DNA from: Pegea sp. RAD2-039
Lineage: Eukaryota > Chordata > Thaliacea > Salpida > Salpidae
Direction: 5' to 3'
Length of the DNA stretch: 64,000 nt
Assembly: GCA_034620365.1 (NCBI GenBank)
Contig: JAQGEQ010000084.1
Span: 620,001 to 684,000 of the forward strand
Shown here: piece by piece, positions 17,816-30,322 of the stretch
Layout of the letters: the number at the start of each line of letters is the position of its first letter
Numbering within the stretch: position 1 is the stretch's first letter
Notes under the pieces: model-generated
Seen by the model: the letters and a program-made list of their open reading frames with translations, nothing else
Databases searched by the model: none
What the model was told of the DNA's origin: nothing
Program-made: the position numbers and the translations under genes

Positions 17816-18700
17816 TTAGAGCTTTATTATTAAAGAGAAAAATATAAAAGGTTTAGAAACGACGATTGTTGCAATATTAAAACGGTTCCACTTCTGCTCG
17901 AACAACACCAGTGATTCTGAAATGACAATGTCTGATGGCAGCTGGTTCCATGTACTAATTGTGCGGCATGAGAAACAATTCACTTTGATTAATGTACCAG
18001 GTGATATAGGCTTATTAAGATGCAATGTGTGTCGTCTGAGCTGATATAACTTGAGAGAAGGACTAATAGAAAAGAAAGCATCAAATTGAAGGTCAATTAA
18101 ATTGTGGATAATTTTAAAAATAAGAATTAAGTCGTATTTAATCCGTCGAATTTCCAAAGCATCTAAATTTAAGAAGCTGAGATGATGTTTATAACTATCA
18201 TATTTAATATTAAGTTTCCTGCATACTAATCTCGTAAATGTGACCTGAACAGATTTAATTTTTTGATATCACTAACTTGATATGGCATCCATGCACTGAC
18301 ATTGAATATTAAGAACTGGACGTAAATACAATTTGAAGAGATTGATAAGGAAGTATGGATCCTTATAATTAAAGGTCTTTATAATAAGGAAGACAAGGTT
18401 GATTGATTTTGCAAAGATTTTAGGAATATAATTGTGCCATTTAAAGTCAGATGATAGGGTAATGCTAAGGTCTAGGACCGAAGATATTTGTTGAATAATA
18501 AATCTATTGATCGAATATTTGTTCAAGGAGTTTGCAGCTGGTTGACGTGGAAAAATTATAATTTCAGACTTTGTGGGCTAAAATCTGAGCTGCCAGTTCA
18601 TACACCAGTTTTCTACAACGTGTCGAGCTGTTCGAATTTAAGTGACATATACTCATTAGTAGAGATATTTTTAATAATGAGTGCAGATGAAAAACCTACA
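17816..18700 (-). mobile_element. Decayed LINE reverse transcriptase, C-terminal part
   Basis: The minus strand reads through the last third of a non-LTR retrotransposon RT. From 5' to 3' of the element: a degenerate site where F-x-DD should lie (aspartates lost, about 18685), W-C-x-NWQL...PTKSE, SSVLDLSITLSSDFKW (the V-K-D-L-G-V-x-x-S-x-D-L block), RDP-like and YLRPVLN, then RRIKYDLI, RRHTLHLNKP, WNQLPSDIV and a terminal F-x-x-K-W. At least one in-frame stop and two frame changes break it. The last frame (17816-18157) ends at a normal stop. The 5' part is missing, so it is a dead, 5'-truncated copy. It differs enough from the copy at 14.9-15.7 kb that the two look like independent insertions. 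Confidence 0.82.
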
Positions 18701-26088: not shown

Positions 26089-27468
26089 ATGTCATATATA
26101 AAAAAACTAAAAGAACCTGATAATTGGAAAATGAATAAAACTTCTTCAAACTCACAAGATGAAAAAGTATCTTCACTTCAGGGCACATCACTTAAACCTA
26201 CAATTTTAAGTAAACCACAATCAACAAAAGTAGAAACAACTTCTAAATTAGACGGATCTAGTGCTTGGCAAGAGGTTTCATCTAATCCTAGTACTCCAAT
26301 TGCTCCTAAATTTTCTTTATGTATAAACCCTCAGAATAATTCAGCTGATAAAAAGAGTTTATCAAAAGGCTCTTTAGAAGCTAAGTTAAAAAGTCTGCCT
26401 TATAACAACAATGAAGGCCAAGTAGTTCACAAAACTGTTATAAAATCAGTAGCAAAAATGATTGATTCAACTAATCATTGGGTTGAAAGTGGAATTGATA
26501 TGTTGCAAGATCAGAATGACTTTTTAGTTGTTGGTGTGCTTGGAGCACAAGGTGTAGGTAAATCAACAATTATGTCTATACTTGCGGGTGGTAAGTTTGA
26601 TGATAACCCGAAAAACACAGTTTTCCGTAAACAGACTAATGAATTGAAAGAAAGAGCCACTCATATGACAACAGGTATTGAATTCACTGTCACTTCTGAA
26701 CGAGTTATTTTATTGGATACTCAACCAATTTTAAGTGCTTCTGTCTTGGAGCAGTTGATTCAAGATAGAAAAAATTCTGATTATTCTGGAAATCCTTCTA
26801 TTCAAACACAGTCTTTGCAATTAGCAACTTTTATTTTGACTGTTTGTCATATAGTCATTGTTGTGCAAGACTATTTTACAGATTTAAATATTTATAACTT
26901 TTTAAATAAAGCTGAAATGATGAAACCACCTGCACCATCTGCACCTCATGATTCTTCTGCAAGTGTTGAGAGAAATCCTTCTGAAATTCAACCAGTTTTA
27001 GTTTATATTCATAATAAATTAGAATCTAACTTTTTTAGTAATCGAGAGATTTATAGGATGAACTCTGTAATAAATGCTTGTACAAAGTTTTCAACAACAT
27101 TTTGTAAAAATCATTTTTCATTATCAAAATCTGGTTTATACCCTGGATTGTCAAAGATGCTTAGTCTTGAAGACGAGGCAAACCATTTCATCTTTCCAAA
27201 TATTGCTGATATTGAAGAATCAGACTCTAAAAAAGTTACTTATGATGAATCTGATAATTTCTTTTTAGAGTTACAACCTTTCAGTAATGTACCAAATTTG
27301 GATTTATTAACTCAAACATTTGTTGAAATGTTATTATCAACACGTAGGCACTCTATAACACAACAATCACTTACTGAAAAAAATTGGTTTCATTATGCTG
27401 CTAGAACCTGGGAAGCAATAAAGAAACCTTCAACACTCATGGAGTTTTCAAGACTTTTTAGCAGTTAG
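26089..27468 (+). CDS. SMG9: SMG9, nonsense-mediated decay factor
   Basis: A single exon of 459 residues. SMG9 is a GTPase-fold regulator that, with SMG8, binds and restrains the kinase SMG1 during nonsense-mediated mRNA decay. The first 120 residues are polar and disordered. The P-loop GAQGVGKST lies near 152-160, followed by HMTTGIEF (switch region), LLDTQPILS, the buried strand FILTVCHIVIVVQDYFTDLN, and the C-terminal block LTEKNWFHYAARTWE, all signature stretches of the family. I chose the ATG at 26089; the frame is open upstream to 26053 but without an ATG. The coding region is intronless. It heads a tight same-strand series with TMEM167B and POFUT1. Confidence 0.95.
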   Translation: MSYIKKLKEPDNWKMNKTSSNSQDEKVSSLQGTSLKPTILSKPQSTKVETTSKLDGSSAWQEVSSNPSTPIAPKFSLCINPQNNSADKKSLSKGSLEAKLKSLPYNNNEGQVVHKTVIKSVAKMIDSTNHWVESGIDMLQDQNDFLVVGVLGAQGVGKSTIMSILAGGKFDDNPKNTVFRKQTNELKERATHMTTGIEFTVTSERVILLDTQPILSASVLEQLIQDRKNSDYSGNPSIQTQSLQLATFILTVCHIVIVVQDYFTDLNIYNFLNKAEMMKPPAPSAPHDSSASVERNPSEIQPVLVYIHNKLESNFFSNREIYRMNSVINACTKFSTTFCKNHFSLSKSGLYPGLSKMLSLEDEANHFIFPNIADIEESDSKKVTYDESDNFFLELQPFSNVPNLDLLTQTFVEMLLSTRRHSITQQSLTEKNWFHYAARTWEAIKKPSTLMEFSRLFSS

Positions 27469-27503: not shown

Positions 27504-27596
27504 AATAAAAAAGTTTTATTTAAACTTGTCTTATCAAAAGTGTTTTTTATGAAGGTTGACATCTATCTAATCAAATTTTTTATGGTTAATTTTCAG
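27504..27596 (+). promoter_or_regulatory. Poly(A) signal and 3' splice site between SMG9 and TMEM167B
   Basis: AATAAA at 27504-27509, 36 nt after the SMG9 stop, is followed by T-rich sequence and TTTTCAG ending at 27596, 55 nt before the TMEM167B start. A poly(A) signal, U-rich stretch, then an acceptor with no room for a donor or promoter is the layout of operon junctions resolved by spliced-leader trans-splicing. An ordinary cis intron with a non-coding first exon is the alternative. Confidence 0.4.
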
Positions 27597-27651
27597 ACTT
27601 GTTTGGTATAAGTCTTAATGGTAATGTTGCTGTAGAGTGAGAGAATACAAC

Positions 27652-28356
27652 ATGGTCAATGGTATGATATTTTGCTTTAACTTATAGAAAGAAGTTTTGT
27701 TGCTACAATTTTTATTTGTGTTAGTTTTCATATTTCAATTTTAAATTGAACAATAAATTATAATTTTTTATTGTGATTGTGACAAATTTCACTTATGTAT
27801 CACATTTTTTAGTGAATGAAAAATAAAGTCAGGAAAATATTGTCAGTTAGAATTTTTTTAAATTTAAGTACCATTATCTAGTTTATCAATTTGGTAATAT
27901 TTAATTACTGTGTTAAGCTCATTTAGCAATATATTTTAAAAACAAGATTTTTGTATCTTTGCTGATATACTAGGTGTTTTAATAGTAAGTTTATCTAATT
28001 AGCAAATGAAAGACTAACTTTTTCAGTTTACTCTTTCGATGGAATACTTATCTTCAGTCTTCTACTAATTTGTACATGTGCTTATCTGAAAAGAATTCCA
28101 AAATTAAAACGGTGGATGTTCTCTGAGAAAAAAGGTTTTCTTGGAATCTTTTATAAAGGTCAGATATTTTGCTACTGATTCAATTTCAACTTCTTTTTCC
28201 ATCAACATCATTGATTAAATTCCTGGTTTTTGATTTTTCTACCATTCAATAATAAATTTGATTCTTTTTATAGCTGCTGTGATTGGAACTCGTCTTCACA
28301 TTCCGGTTTGTCTCACCTGCGTCGCGACTTCTCTATATCTCATCCTTTTGAAGTGA
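27652..28356 (+). CDS. TMEM167B: TMEM167B / protein Kish-B
   Basis: Three exons (27652-27661, 28027-28158, 28274-28356) give 74 residues, exactly the length of the vertebrate protein. Kish proteins are small double-span membrane proteins needed for Golgi function and constitutive secretion. The product shows YSFDGILIFSLLLICTCAY (first span), KRIPKLKRW, SEKKGFLGIFYKAAVIGTR, and a second hydrophobic span ending LLK; these match Kish-B better than Kish-A. Exon 1 carries only three codons plus one base. The stop codon ends at 28356 and the POFUT1 ATG is at 28363. The terminal exon contains no ATG in any frame, which would let it act as a leader for POFUT1. Confidence 0.93.
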
Positions 28357-28362
28357 TTTAAT

Positions 28363-29487
28363 ATGATTCGAGCGATCTTCTTAACCTCTCTTCTCTTTCT
28401 ATTCTCACTTCCAACCACCTCTCTTGATGTCAATGGATATCTTCTTTATTGCCCGTGCATGGGCAGATTTGGTAACCAAGCTGACCATCTTCTTGGCTCG
28501 ATTGCTTTTGCCAAAAAACTCAACAAAACTCTGATTGTACCACCTTTTATTTACTATCATTTTGGGAATGCAAATTCTTACATATCTTTTGATGATTGGT
28601 TTAATTTAACTTCCTTAAACCAATATCATCGTGTTCTTACAATGAAACATTTCATGAAGGAATTGGCTCCTAAGATTTGGAAGGAAGATCAAAGAGTAGT
28701 TACCTGCCATGAAGTAGCTTCTCGTCGTAGTAAGGACCGGTCGTGTCCAGCTAAAAATGGCAATCCTTTTGGACCGTTTTGGGACCATTTTAATGTCACC
28801 TTTGTGGGATCTAAATTATTCCAGTTAAGTTTCCACTCATCAGCAGAAGAGTGGACACGAGCTTTCCCCACAAGAAACAATTTTGTTTTGACTTTTATGG
28901 GTGCGATGGCCGCTTATCCAGTCCTAGAAGAACATCGGCATATCCAGAAATATATTGACTGGTCAGACGAGGTCTCTACAAAACGAGATAACTTTATGAG
29001 AAGTAAATTGAACAAACCTTATCTTGCTATACACCTAAGAAATGGGATGGATTGGAAACGAGCATGCGATCATATTGATGAGAAGGGAATTGATTATCAC
29101 TTTATGTCTTCTCCTCAATGTGTCGGCTACAATTCTCGTCGACTGTTCACCCGACAAATGTGTTTGCCAAGTAAAGAAGTGGTTTTGAAACAAGTTTTAG
29201 ATTTATTGATTAAATATCATCTGAAAGCCTTGTTTATAGCGACGGATAGTGATTCCATGCTGTCTGATTTTCAACATTTATTTGCTATAAATAAACTTGA
29301 AGTAGAAATAGTTGTATATCCTGAAAAGAGCTTGCAAATGGACCTTGCAATTATGATTGAAGCGGATTATTTTATAGGAACATGTGCTTCTTCTGTATCA
29401 GCATTTTCTGTACGGAAAAGAGAATGTTTGAAAAAATCTTATGAGTTTTTTGCCGTCGCTAACCAAGCGCGTCACACAGAACTTTAG
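28363..29487 (+). CDS. POFUT1: GDP-fucose protein O-fucosyltransferase 1
   Basis: A single exon of 374 residues. POFUT1 adds O-fucose to serine or threonine in EGF repeats, notably of Notch, inside the endoplasmic reticulum. It begins with a clear signal peptide (1-20), then the donor-binding motif GRFGNQADH (34-42), the catalytic-region HLRNGMDW (224-231) with nearby cysteines, ATDSD, and DLAIMIEADYFIGTC near the end, all characteristic of the GT65 family. The C-terminus HTEL resembles an ER-retrieval tetrapeptide, fitting the known ER location. Likely N-glycosylation sites are NLT (81) and NVT (144). The start codon is only 6 nt after the TMEM167B stop, so it has no private promoter or leader of normal size, suggesting shared transcription. 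Confidence 0.95.
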   Translation: MIRAIFLTSLLFLFSLPTTSLDVNGYLLYCPCMGRFGNQADHLLGSIAFAKKLNKTLIVPPFIYYHFGNANSYISFDDWFNLTSLNQYHRVLTMKHFMKELAPKIWKEDQRVVTCHEVASRRSKDRSCPAKNGNPFGPFWDHFNVTFVGSKLFQLSFHSSAEEWTRAFPTRNNFVLTFMGAMAAYPVLEEHRHIQKYIDWSDEVSTKRDNFMRSKLNKPYLAIHLRNGMDWKRACDHIDEKGIDYHFMSSPQCVGYNSRRLFTRQMCLPSKEVVLKQVLDLLIKYHLKALFIATDSDSMLSDFQHLFAINKLEVEIVVYPEKSLQMDLAIMIEADYFIGTCASSVSAFSVRKRECLKKSYEFFAVANQARHTEL

Positions 29488-30322
29488 TGGATTTGTATTA
29501 TCCGAATATATTGATATATCTCTAAATATTTATAACATCAGTTGGCAAGCATATCAACTTTACCTGAACTACGATAGAGGGTTGTATAAGTTTGTATTTT
29601 TCTGTTTATTTACATCGATATCTTATAAATTTTTCTTTGCTTATTCAAGTTCATTTTGTAGCAATGCATACATTTAGTGAGTTTATTTCAGCTCAATATT
29701 AAAATAATCAAATCAAAACCAGTTAGTTATTTGATGTATTCAAAGGTTGTATTGTTTAATCTTTACATAATTATTAAAAATCATTATTGGTAAGTTAAAA
29801 TTGTTTCAAGTTGTACAGTATTGCTTCTATTTCTTTAGTAAAATAATTTTAGTAATTCTTTTGCAAAACTTATTAAAAAGTATAAATAAAAGCTTTGCAA
29901 TAAGTTTTCGGATCAGTTAGTTTCCTTTTTGCTGGTCACAAAAGTTACCTCATGACAAACACAAATAAGCATTTTTAAATAAAAAGCTTCCTGGCTAACA
30001 AATCAGCAAACCACCATAAGCATCTATTTTGATTTTATTTCAATAAATAGAAATAGTTTGGCTACAATTTGTTAACTTGGAGACTATTTACAAATTATTG
30101 AGAGAAGAATTAATTGAATAAACAGCAAAGTCTACTCACAAATGCAAAAGACATCTCGAGAAAGAAGTTTTTTAGTAGTATAAGCACTAAAGAAAGTAGA
30201 TACAATTGTTTAAGGAGACACTTATAAATTTGCAGACATAAATAAAGATGTATTTTGCTTTAATATGTTAGTTAGTGCTTTTAAATAGCTTATAAGATAA
30301 AAAATTAAATCGTTCAAAACGA
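29488..30322. other. Convergent intergenic spacer
   Basis: Spacer between the 3' ends of POFUT1 (plus) and ARFRP1 (minus). A/T-rich; no gene seen. Confidence 0.55.

Follow-up and report, generated by a model that had tools for sequence, protein, structure and literature searches.

In the window, by which we mean the whole stretch of 64,000 nucleotides analysed here, two genes on the forward strand lie almost end to end. TMEM167B (Kish-B) consists of a very short first coding exon (27652-27661, ATG GTC AAT G), a second exon (28027-28158) with the donor AAG|GTCAGA, which carries C at +3, and a third exon (28274-28356) closed by the stop codon TGA (28354-28356), and its introns measure 365 nt (intron 1) and 115 nt (intron 2, 28159-28273). 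Splicing of the three exons in silico yields a complete Kish protein of 74 aa (MVNVYSFDG...LYLILLK, stop), which matches PF06842 in Pfam (4.1e-12; 71 aa were scanned, the first three residues being left off). POFUT1 follows as a single uninterrupted exon (28363-29487; 374 aa, stop TAG), which matches PF10250 (3.1e-64) as well as solved POFUT1 structures (1.9e-101); a single locus of the 105.7-Mb assembly matches it. Judged by eye, its N-terminus is signal-peptide-like, and its C-terminal end reads HTEL (29473-29484), which we take to be a KDEL-like ER retention motif. Kish/TMEM167 is a Golgi protein that functions in secretion, and POFUT1 is a Notch-modifying enzyme responsible for O-fucosylation of Notch-type proteins. 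When the assembly was searched with the Kish-B protein, two pieces of the Kish-B locus and one 45%-identical paralogue were found; the paralogue, at C6:4230595-4230762 (L036), is probably Kish-A (TMEM167A).

The Kish-B stop ends at 28356 and the POFUT1 ATG stands at 28363, and the in-silico splicing bears out the gap of 6 nt (TTTAAT, 28357-28362) that the initial annotation had reported between them. Its two other observations at the junction are also correct: exon 3 of Kish-B is ATG-free in any frame, and a good acceptor precedes it, reading ttctttttatag|CTGCTG. The gap itself contains neither AG nor AATAAA. Both open reading frames are in the same frame and a single TGA divides them. At the Kish-B start codon, position -3 is A and position +4 is G, and at least three further ATGs follow (28039, 28076 and 28116). 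The conclusion drawn in the same annotation, that a promoter or 5' UTR of POFUT1 has no room here, does not follow, because both could lie within Kish-B. It turned out that an ATG-free exon 3 is expected in 14.5% of 20,000 synonymous recodings of its peptide, so this property is weak evidence alone.

From position 28164 of intron 2 to the POFUT1 ATG, only two AGs occur, one before 28274 and one before 28354. The latter (AG at 28352-28353, ccttttgaag|) is situated directly 5' of the Kish-B stop and is of the less likely AAG type. Over 28257-29289 there is no AATAAA, and the copy at 29290 falls within the POFUT1 coding region; when five variant poly(A) signals are listed as well, the first one past the Kish-B stop is AATATA at 28949, inside POFUT1. 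As AATAAA is lacking in this interval, Kish-B transcripts should continue into POFUT1 unless they end at a signal of another kind, which makes a transcript stretch common to both genes likely. This is the part that stands of the earlier proposal that the two proteins share one transcription unit, and a bicistronic RNA would be a further deduction from it. The AATAAA at 29885-29890, 3' of POFUT1, is the likely 3' end signal of that gene. Another AATAAA (28251-28256) is located within Kish-B intron 2, 17 nt before exon 3, and may be there by chance, because 12 of the 115 TTTYAG sites on the forward strand of the window have an AATAAA 8-45 nt upstream.

Among 1997 ATGs of the window, 8.2% have an acceptor as good as that at 28274 no more than 100 nt upstream, according to an ad hoc score. 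With the same kind of score applied to 11 gene starts, SMG9, POFUT1 and AGPAT5 are in the top 9% of the 1997 background ATGs for upstream acceptor strength, and the remaining eight are outside it; the acceptor upstream of the Kish-B start scored -1.0 and was not ranked. Donors were scored with an informal matrix, giving 12.5 for the spliced-leader (SL) donor, 6.2 for the donor of Kish-B intron 2 (AAG|GTCAGA) and 6.1 for the other Kish-B donor. The two Kish-B donors thus score alike, and that of intron 2 is not specially weak within its gene.

Upstream, SMG9 (26089-27468, forward strand) is a single coding exon of 459 aa that matches PDB SMG9 chains (best 9.2e-77), and 183 nt separate its coding region from the Kish-B ATG on the same strand. 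It is possible that SMG9 is the first cistron of a trio with Kish-B and POFUT1. An AATAAA (27504-27509, forward strand) begins 36 nt beyond its stop and is likely its poly(A) signal. Between this signal and Kish-B we found an acceptor-like ttaattttcag (27586-27596, forward strand), whose exon side starts at 27597, 55 nt before the ATG; its score is weak, and a leader joined there would hold two upstream ATGs. An ARF-family gene, read from its ORF frame with no library comparison, is located downstream of POFUT1 on the opposite strand.

The assembly was searched for the ascidian SL pattern ATTCTATTTGAATAAGGTANG (SL exon plus GTANG) with at most 2 mismatches, and 186 places were found versus 2 for the reversed control. 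The exact 16-nt leader followed by GTAAG occurs at 42 places, of which 33 form one array on contig C4, 6 share contig C11 with the window, and the remaining 3 are elsewhere. The C4 array is built from units of about 199 bp, with exact copies at C4:1135044-1142222, and the units read ATTCTATTTGAATAAG|GTAAGTGTCTATCAGGAGTAATCTCC... and include a small predicted hairpin. Tandem arrays of such units extend over C4:1134845-1142222, C11:115-1521 and C11:16600-16818. Six of the listed units carry AATAAA|GTAAG where AATAAG|GTAAG is the usual form; they are otherwise unchanged and may be inactive. The Ciona leader is identical over the 16 nt, is carried by at least 58% of expressed genes and is coded in 264-bp repeats, according to the available part of PMC7986045. 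The Ciona Sm motif AGCTTTGG is absent from the first 60 nt of nine SL units, so that a working SL RNA is putative; by eye, a near match (AGCTTTTG) was noticed about 90 nt into one unit. Taken as a whole, the SL genes indicate that SL trans-splicing is very probably available in this genome. Other leaders were also tried in the assembly, and a bdelloid rotifer leader and nematode SL1 gave 0 places each, as did a Brachionus plicatilis-type leader taken from Brachionus manjavacas primers (PMC2746195). A search for a COX1 motif likewise gave 0 places. Judged by its leader, the genome would belong to an ascidian or something closely related. The telomere repeat here is TTAGGG, and that of Ciona robusta is given as CCCCTAA in the part of PMC6836712 available, which makes Ciona robusta itself improbable. 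Xenoturbella was set aside because its GC content is 43% (PMC11521371).

Besides the arrays, the SL exon followed by GTTATAGG was found at 30 places with at most one mismatch, versus 0 in the control. Three loci of this SL-GTTAT type were read, namely L029 (C1:3479388), L030 (C6:247818) and L031 (C1:936452), and they have a LINE-like body in common with an open frame of 247 aa in L029 and 334 aa in L030 and L031; the two L030 pieces scanned gave only Pfam matches below the cut-off. In all three the SL exon is at or near the 5' end, twice in tandem in L031. The 30 nt upstream of the leader differ between L029 and L030, and the comparison with L031 is limited to 8 nt. In two other loci (L032 and L033), the SL exon stands beside unrelated sequence that contains no frame of 80 aa. 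The simplest reading is that the LINE-like loci represent reverse-transcribed, SL-tagged RNA, a putative fossil of trans-splicing, and the family looks like the outcome of repeated trans-splicing followed by retrotransposition. The leader at or near the 5' end of the three loci would then support real leader use.

Since TTTAAT contains no AG, POFUT1 is either not trans-spliced or accepts its leader inside Kish-B. We infer that the leader joins at 28274, that transcription starts upstream of Kish-B and that cis- and trans-splicing compete. In this model, the 16-nt leader and the Kish-B donor at 28158 would compete for the acceptor 28274, and exon 3 of Kish-B together with TTTAAT would become an ATG-free POFUT1 5' UTR of 105 nt including the leader; that a leader joined here brings no upstream ATG is a point in its favour. 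Cis-splicing from 28158 to 28274 would instead give a full-length Kish-B mRNA with the POFUT1 sequence as its 3' part, so that one RNA would yield either full-length Kish-B or SL-POFUT1, and the AATAAA at 28251 could end the leftover Kish-B fragment, which would code for a 53-aa short form. The initial annotation had treated the sharing of the exon as harmless, which does not hold, as leader use at 28274 would strip the Kish-B C-terminus from that RNA. Its idea of a spliced leader is compatible with the ascidian SL exon and donor arrays and with the three LINE-like loci; the joining at 28274 is a proposal that goes beyond them.

On the sequence as it stands, an operon is probable for this pair, and an acceptor at 28274 common to cis- and trans-splicing is plausible. 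That leader joining at 28274, where the last Kish-B exon is also accepted in cis, produces the POFUT1 mRNA within a tight pair or trio has, in our view, close to an even chance. More tentatively, one 3' splice site might pick either Kish-B (by cis-splicing) or POFUT1 (by SL trans-splicing, with Kish-B destroyed), a possible but rather doubtful zero-sum choice that would be set by the SL RNA supply and donor strength.

The alternative that deserves most attention is that POFUT1 has a promoter inside Kish-B, in either intron or in exon 3, and may or may not receive a leader at 28274, so that the genes overlap and an operon is not needed. The 6-nt gap is too small for a promoter, but the introns of 365 nt and 115 nt are large enough, and intron 2 could hold either a promoter or an outron. 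A two-promoter model, with starts within the intron before the acceptor, is left open for Ciona in the available part of PMC11155486. For the Kish-B transcript 28274 is the second acceptor, and it becomes the first only if transcription begins beyond 28027, as it would with a start in intron 2; since Ciona trans-splicing favours the first functional acceptor (PMC11155486, as partly available, from which operon genes were left out), a start inside intron 2 is favoured by this rule. Against such a promoter, the Kish-B transcripts would still enter POFUT1 unless a signal other than AATAAA is used, and on balance we consider it somewhat unlikely. A dicistronic mRNA translated twice, through a restart 6 nt past the Kish-B TGA or through occasional in-frame read-through of that TGA, is improbable in our view. 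The 6-nt spacing and the common frame would suit it, and because the stretch is one open exon, no exon junction lies between the Kish-B stop and the POFUT1 stop, a layout immune to NMD and comparable with human bicistronic mRNAs (PMC3951408, in the part available). However, the SL genes of the genome offer a simpler route. For reinitiation in animals, a first ORF of 74 codons counts as long, and leaky scanning is made unlikely by A at -3 and G at +4 of the Kish-B start and by the ATGs that follow it. Read-through would fuse Kish-B and POFUT1 in frame, and nothing favours it.

Leader joining might also take place at 28354, directly 5' of the Kish-B stop (AAG|TGATTTAATATG), which would leave a 25-nt leader. 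This site has a pyrimidine-rich tatatctcatccttttgaag, but A at -3 makes a poor acceptor. It would come nearest to what is seen in Ciona, where the acceptor AG marks the end of the upstream gene (PMC6836712, as partly available), yet cutting there would deprive the upstream mRNA of its stop codon, and we regard joining at 28354 as very unlikely. An error of assembly or frame that conceals a longer gap is conceivable as the locus is known from a single assembly, but the Kish-B and POFUT1 proteins are complete and their ends agree with family members, so such an error is highly improbable.

With the leader joining at 28274 as the preferred reading, the two genes resemble an SL operon of tunicates, which is a known kind of arrangement, with a departure from the Ciona junction rule. 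The Ciona SL operons (Satou et al. 2008, PMC2760879; 2019, PMC6836712), in the portions of these papers available, likewise have the leader sequence, same-strand neighbours less than 100 bp apart, many single-exon genes and hardly any intergenic DNA; here, SL genes with leader and donor are present, the same-strand genes are 6 nt apart, and the coding regions of SMG9 and POFUT1 are single exons. Single-exon genes are enriched in Ciona operons especially in the first position (PMC2760879, in part). Ciona operon genes abut, and their curation included a check that each upstream gene stops at the very AG used as leader acceptor (PMC6836712 and PMC2760879, as far as available), whereas here the gap contains no AG and the acceptor would have to be in the upstream coding sequence. 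For Ciona genes outside operons, the accessible part of PMC11155486 describes frequent leader addition at the first cis acceptor, associated with weakness of the paired donor. Such TS-1stAS genes resemble the present model in the leader being added at a cis acceptor, whose donor here scores well below the SL donor but no lower than the other Kish-B donor, and in the competition of cis- and trans-splicing; they differ in that forms of one non-operonic gene arise at its first acceptor, while two proteins would be concerned here, at an acceptor that is the second one in the upstream gene. The RFC140/flp SL operon of Hydra also has a single-exon downstream gene, which is expressed through SL addition, but between its two genes lie an acceptor, a run rich in T and a putative poly(A) signal (PMC3273482, in the part available), and the junction here has no such region.

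A different comparison concerns RNAs that hold two coding regions. The human pairs SNURF-SNRPN and LASS1-GDF1 are not known to use a spliced leader, unlike the SL model discussed here. They are similar to the present pair in having two coding regions per RNA and an NMD-immune layout, as described in the available text of PMC3951408. The literature searched, with partial coverage, contained nothing relevant on TMEM167B together with POFUT1 and no arrangement like that of this junction.

The usual view of tunicate SL operons is that they separate neighbours that are each complete. A junction without room for its own acceptor would, if true, show a limit of gene compaction, and it would also provide a natural test in which cis and trans splicing compete for one site and each outcome is reported by a different protein. 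Should the genes simply overlap, with the POFUT1 promoter inside Kish-B, the case is of modest interest for annotation, as gene finders would tend to fuse or misplace both genes.

Two wider comparisons were made in the assembly. The Ciona operon DTL-URM1-CHERP (PMC2760879, in part) served as a positive control, and URM1 was found at C83:501053, where inspection by eye of roughly 1.5 kb to each side showed no recognisable neighbour; the control thus does not confirm that this species uses operons. For tight pairs, we surveyed 264 kb (the window and 20 stretches of 10 kb), where a codon score derived from 15 long ORFs could not separate gene ends from exon ends, and no frequency of close pairs is therefore claimed. 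Acceptor-like sites were noticed 39 nt before the ATG of both SMG9 (window 26050) and URM1 (L037, about 1456), as expected of leader-accepting genes.

Regarding non-coding RNA, Rfam gave 0 matches in the window at gathering scores and 0 in L025 at E values up to 1, and the tRNA scan gave 0 matches. Further leader-like repeats were seen inside the 5' region of the LINE-like SL family. Elsewhere in the window, a fragment at 17819-18268 resembles by eye the C-terminal part of a reverse transcriptase, with no Pfam match, and a frame at about L003:5053-5475 looks similar to it.
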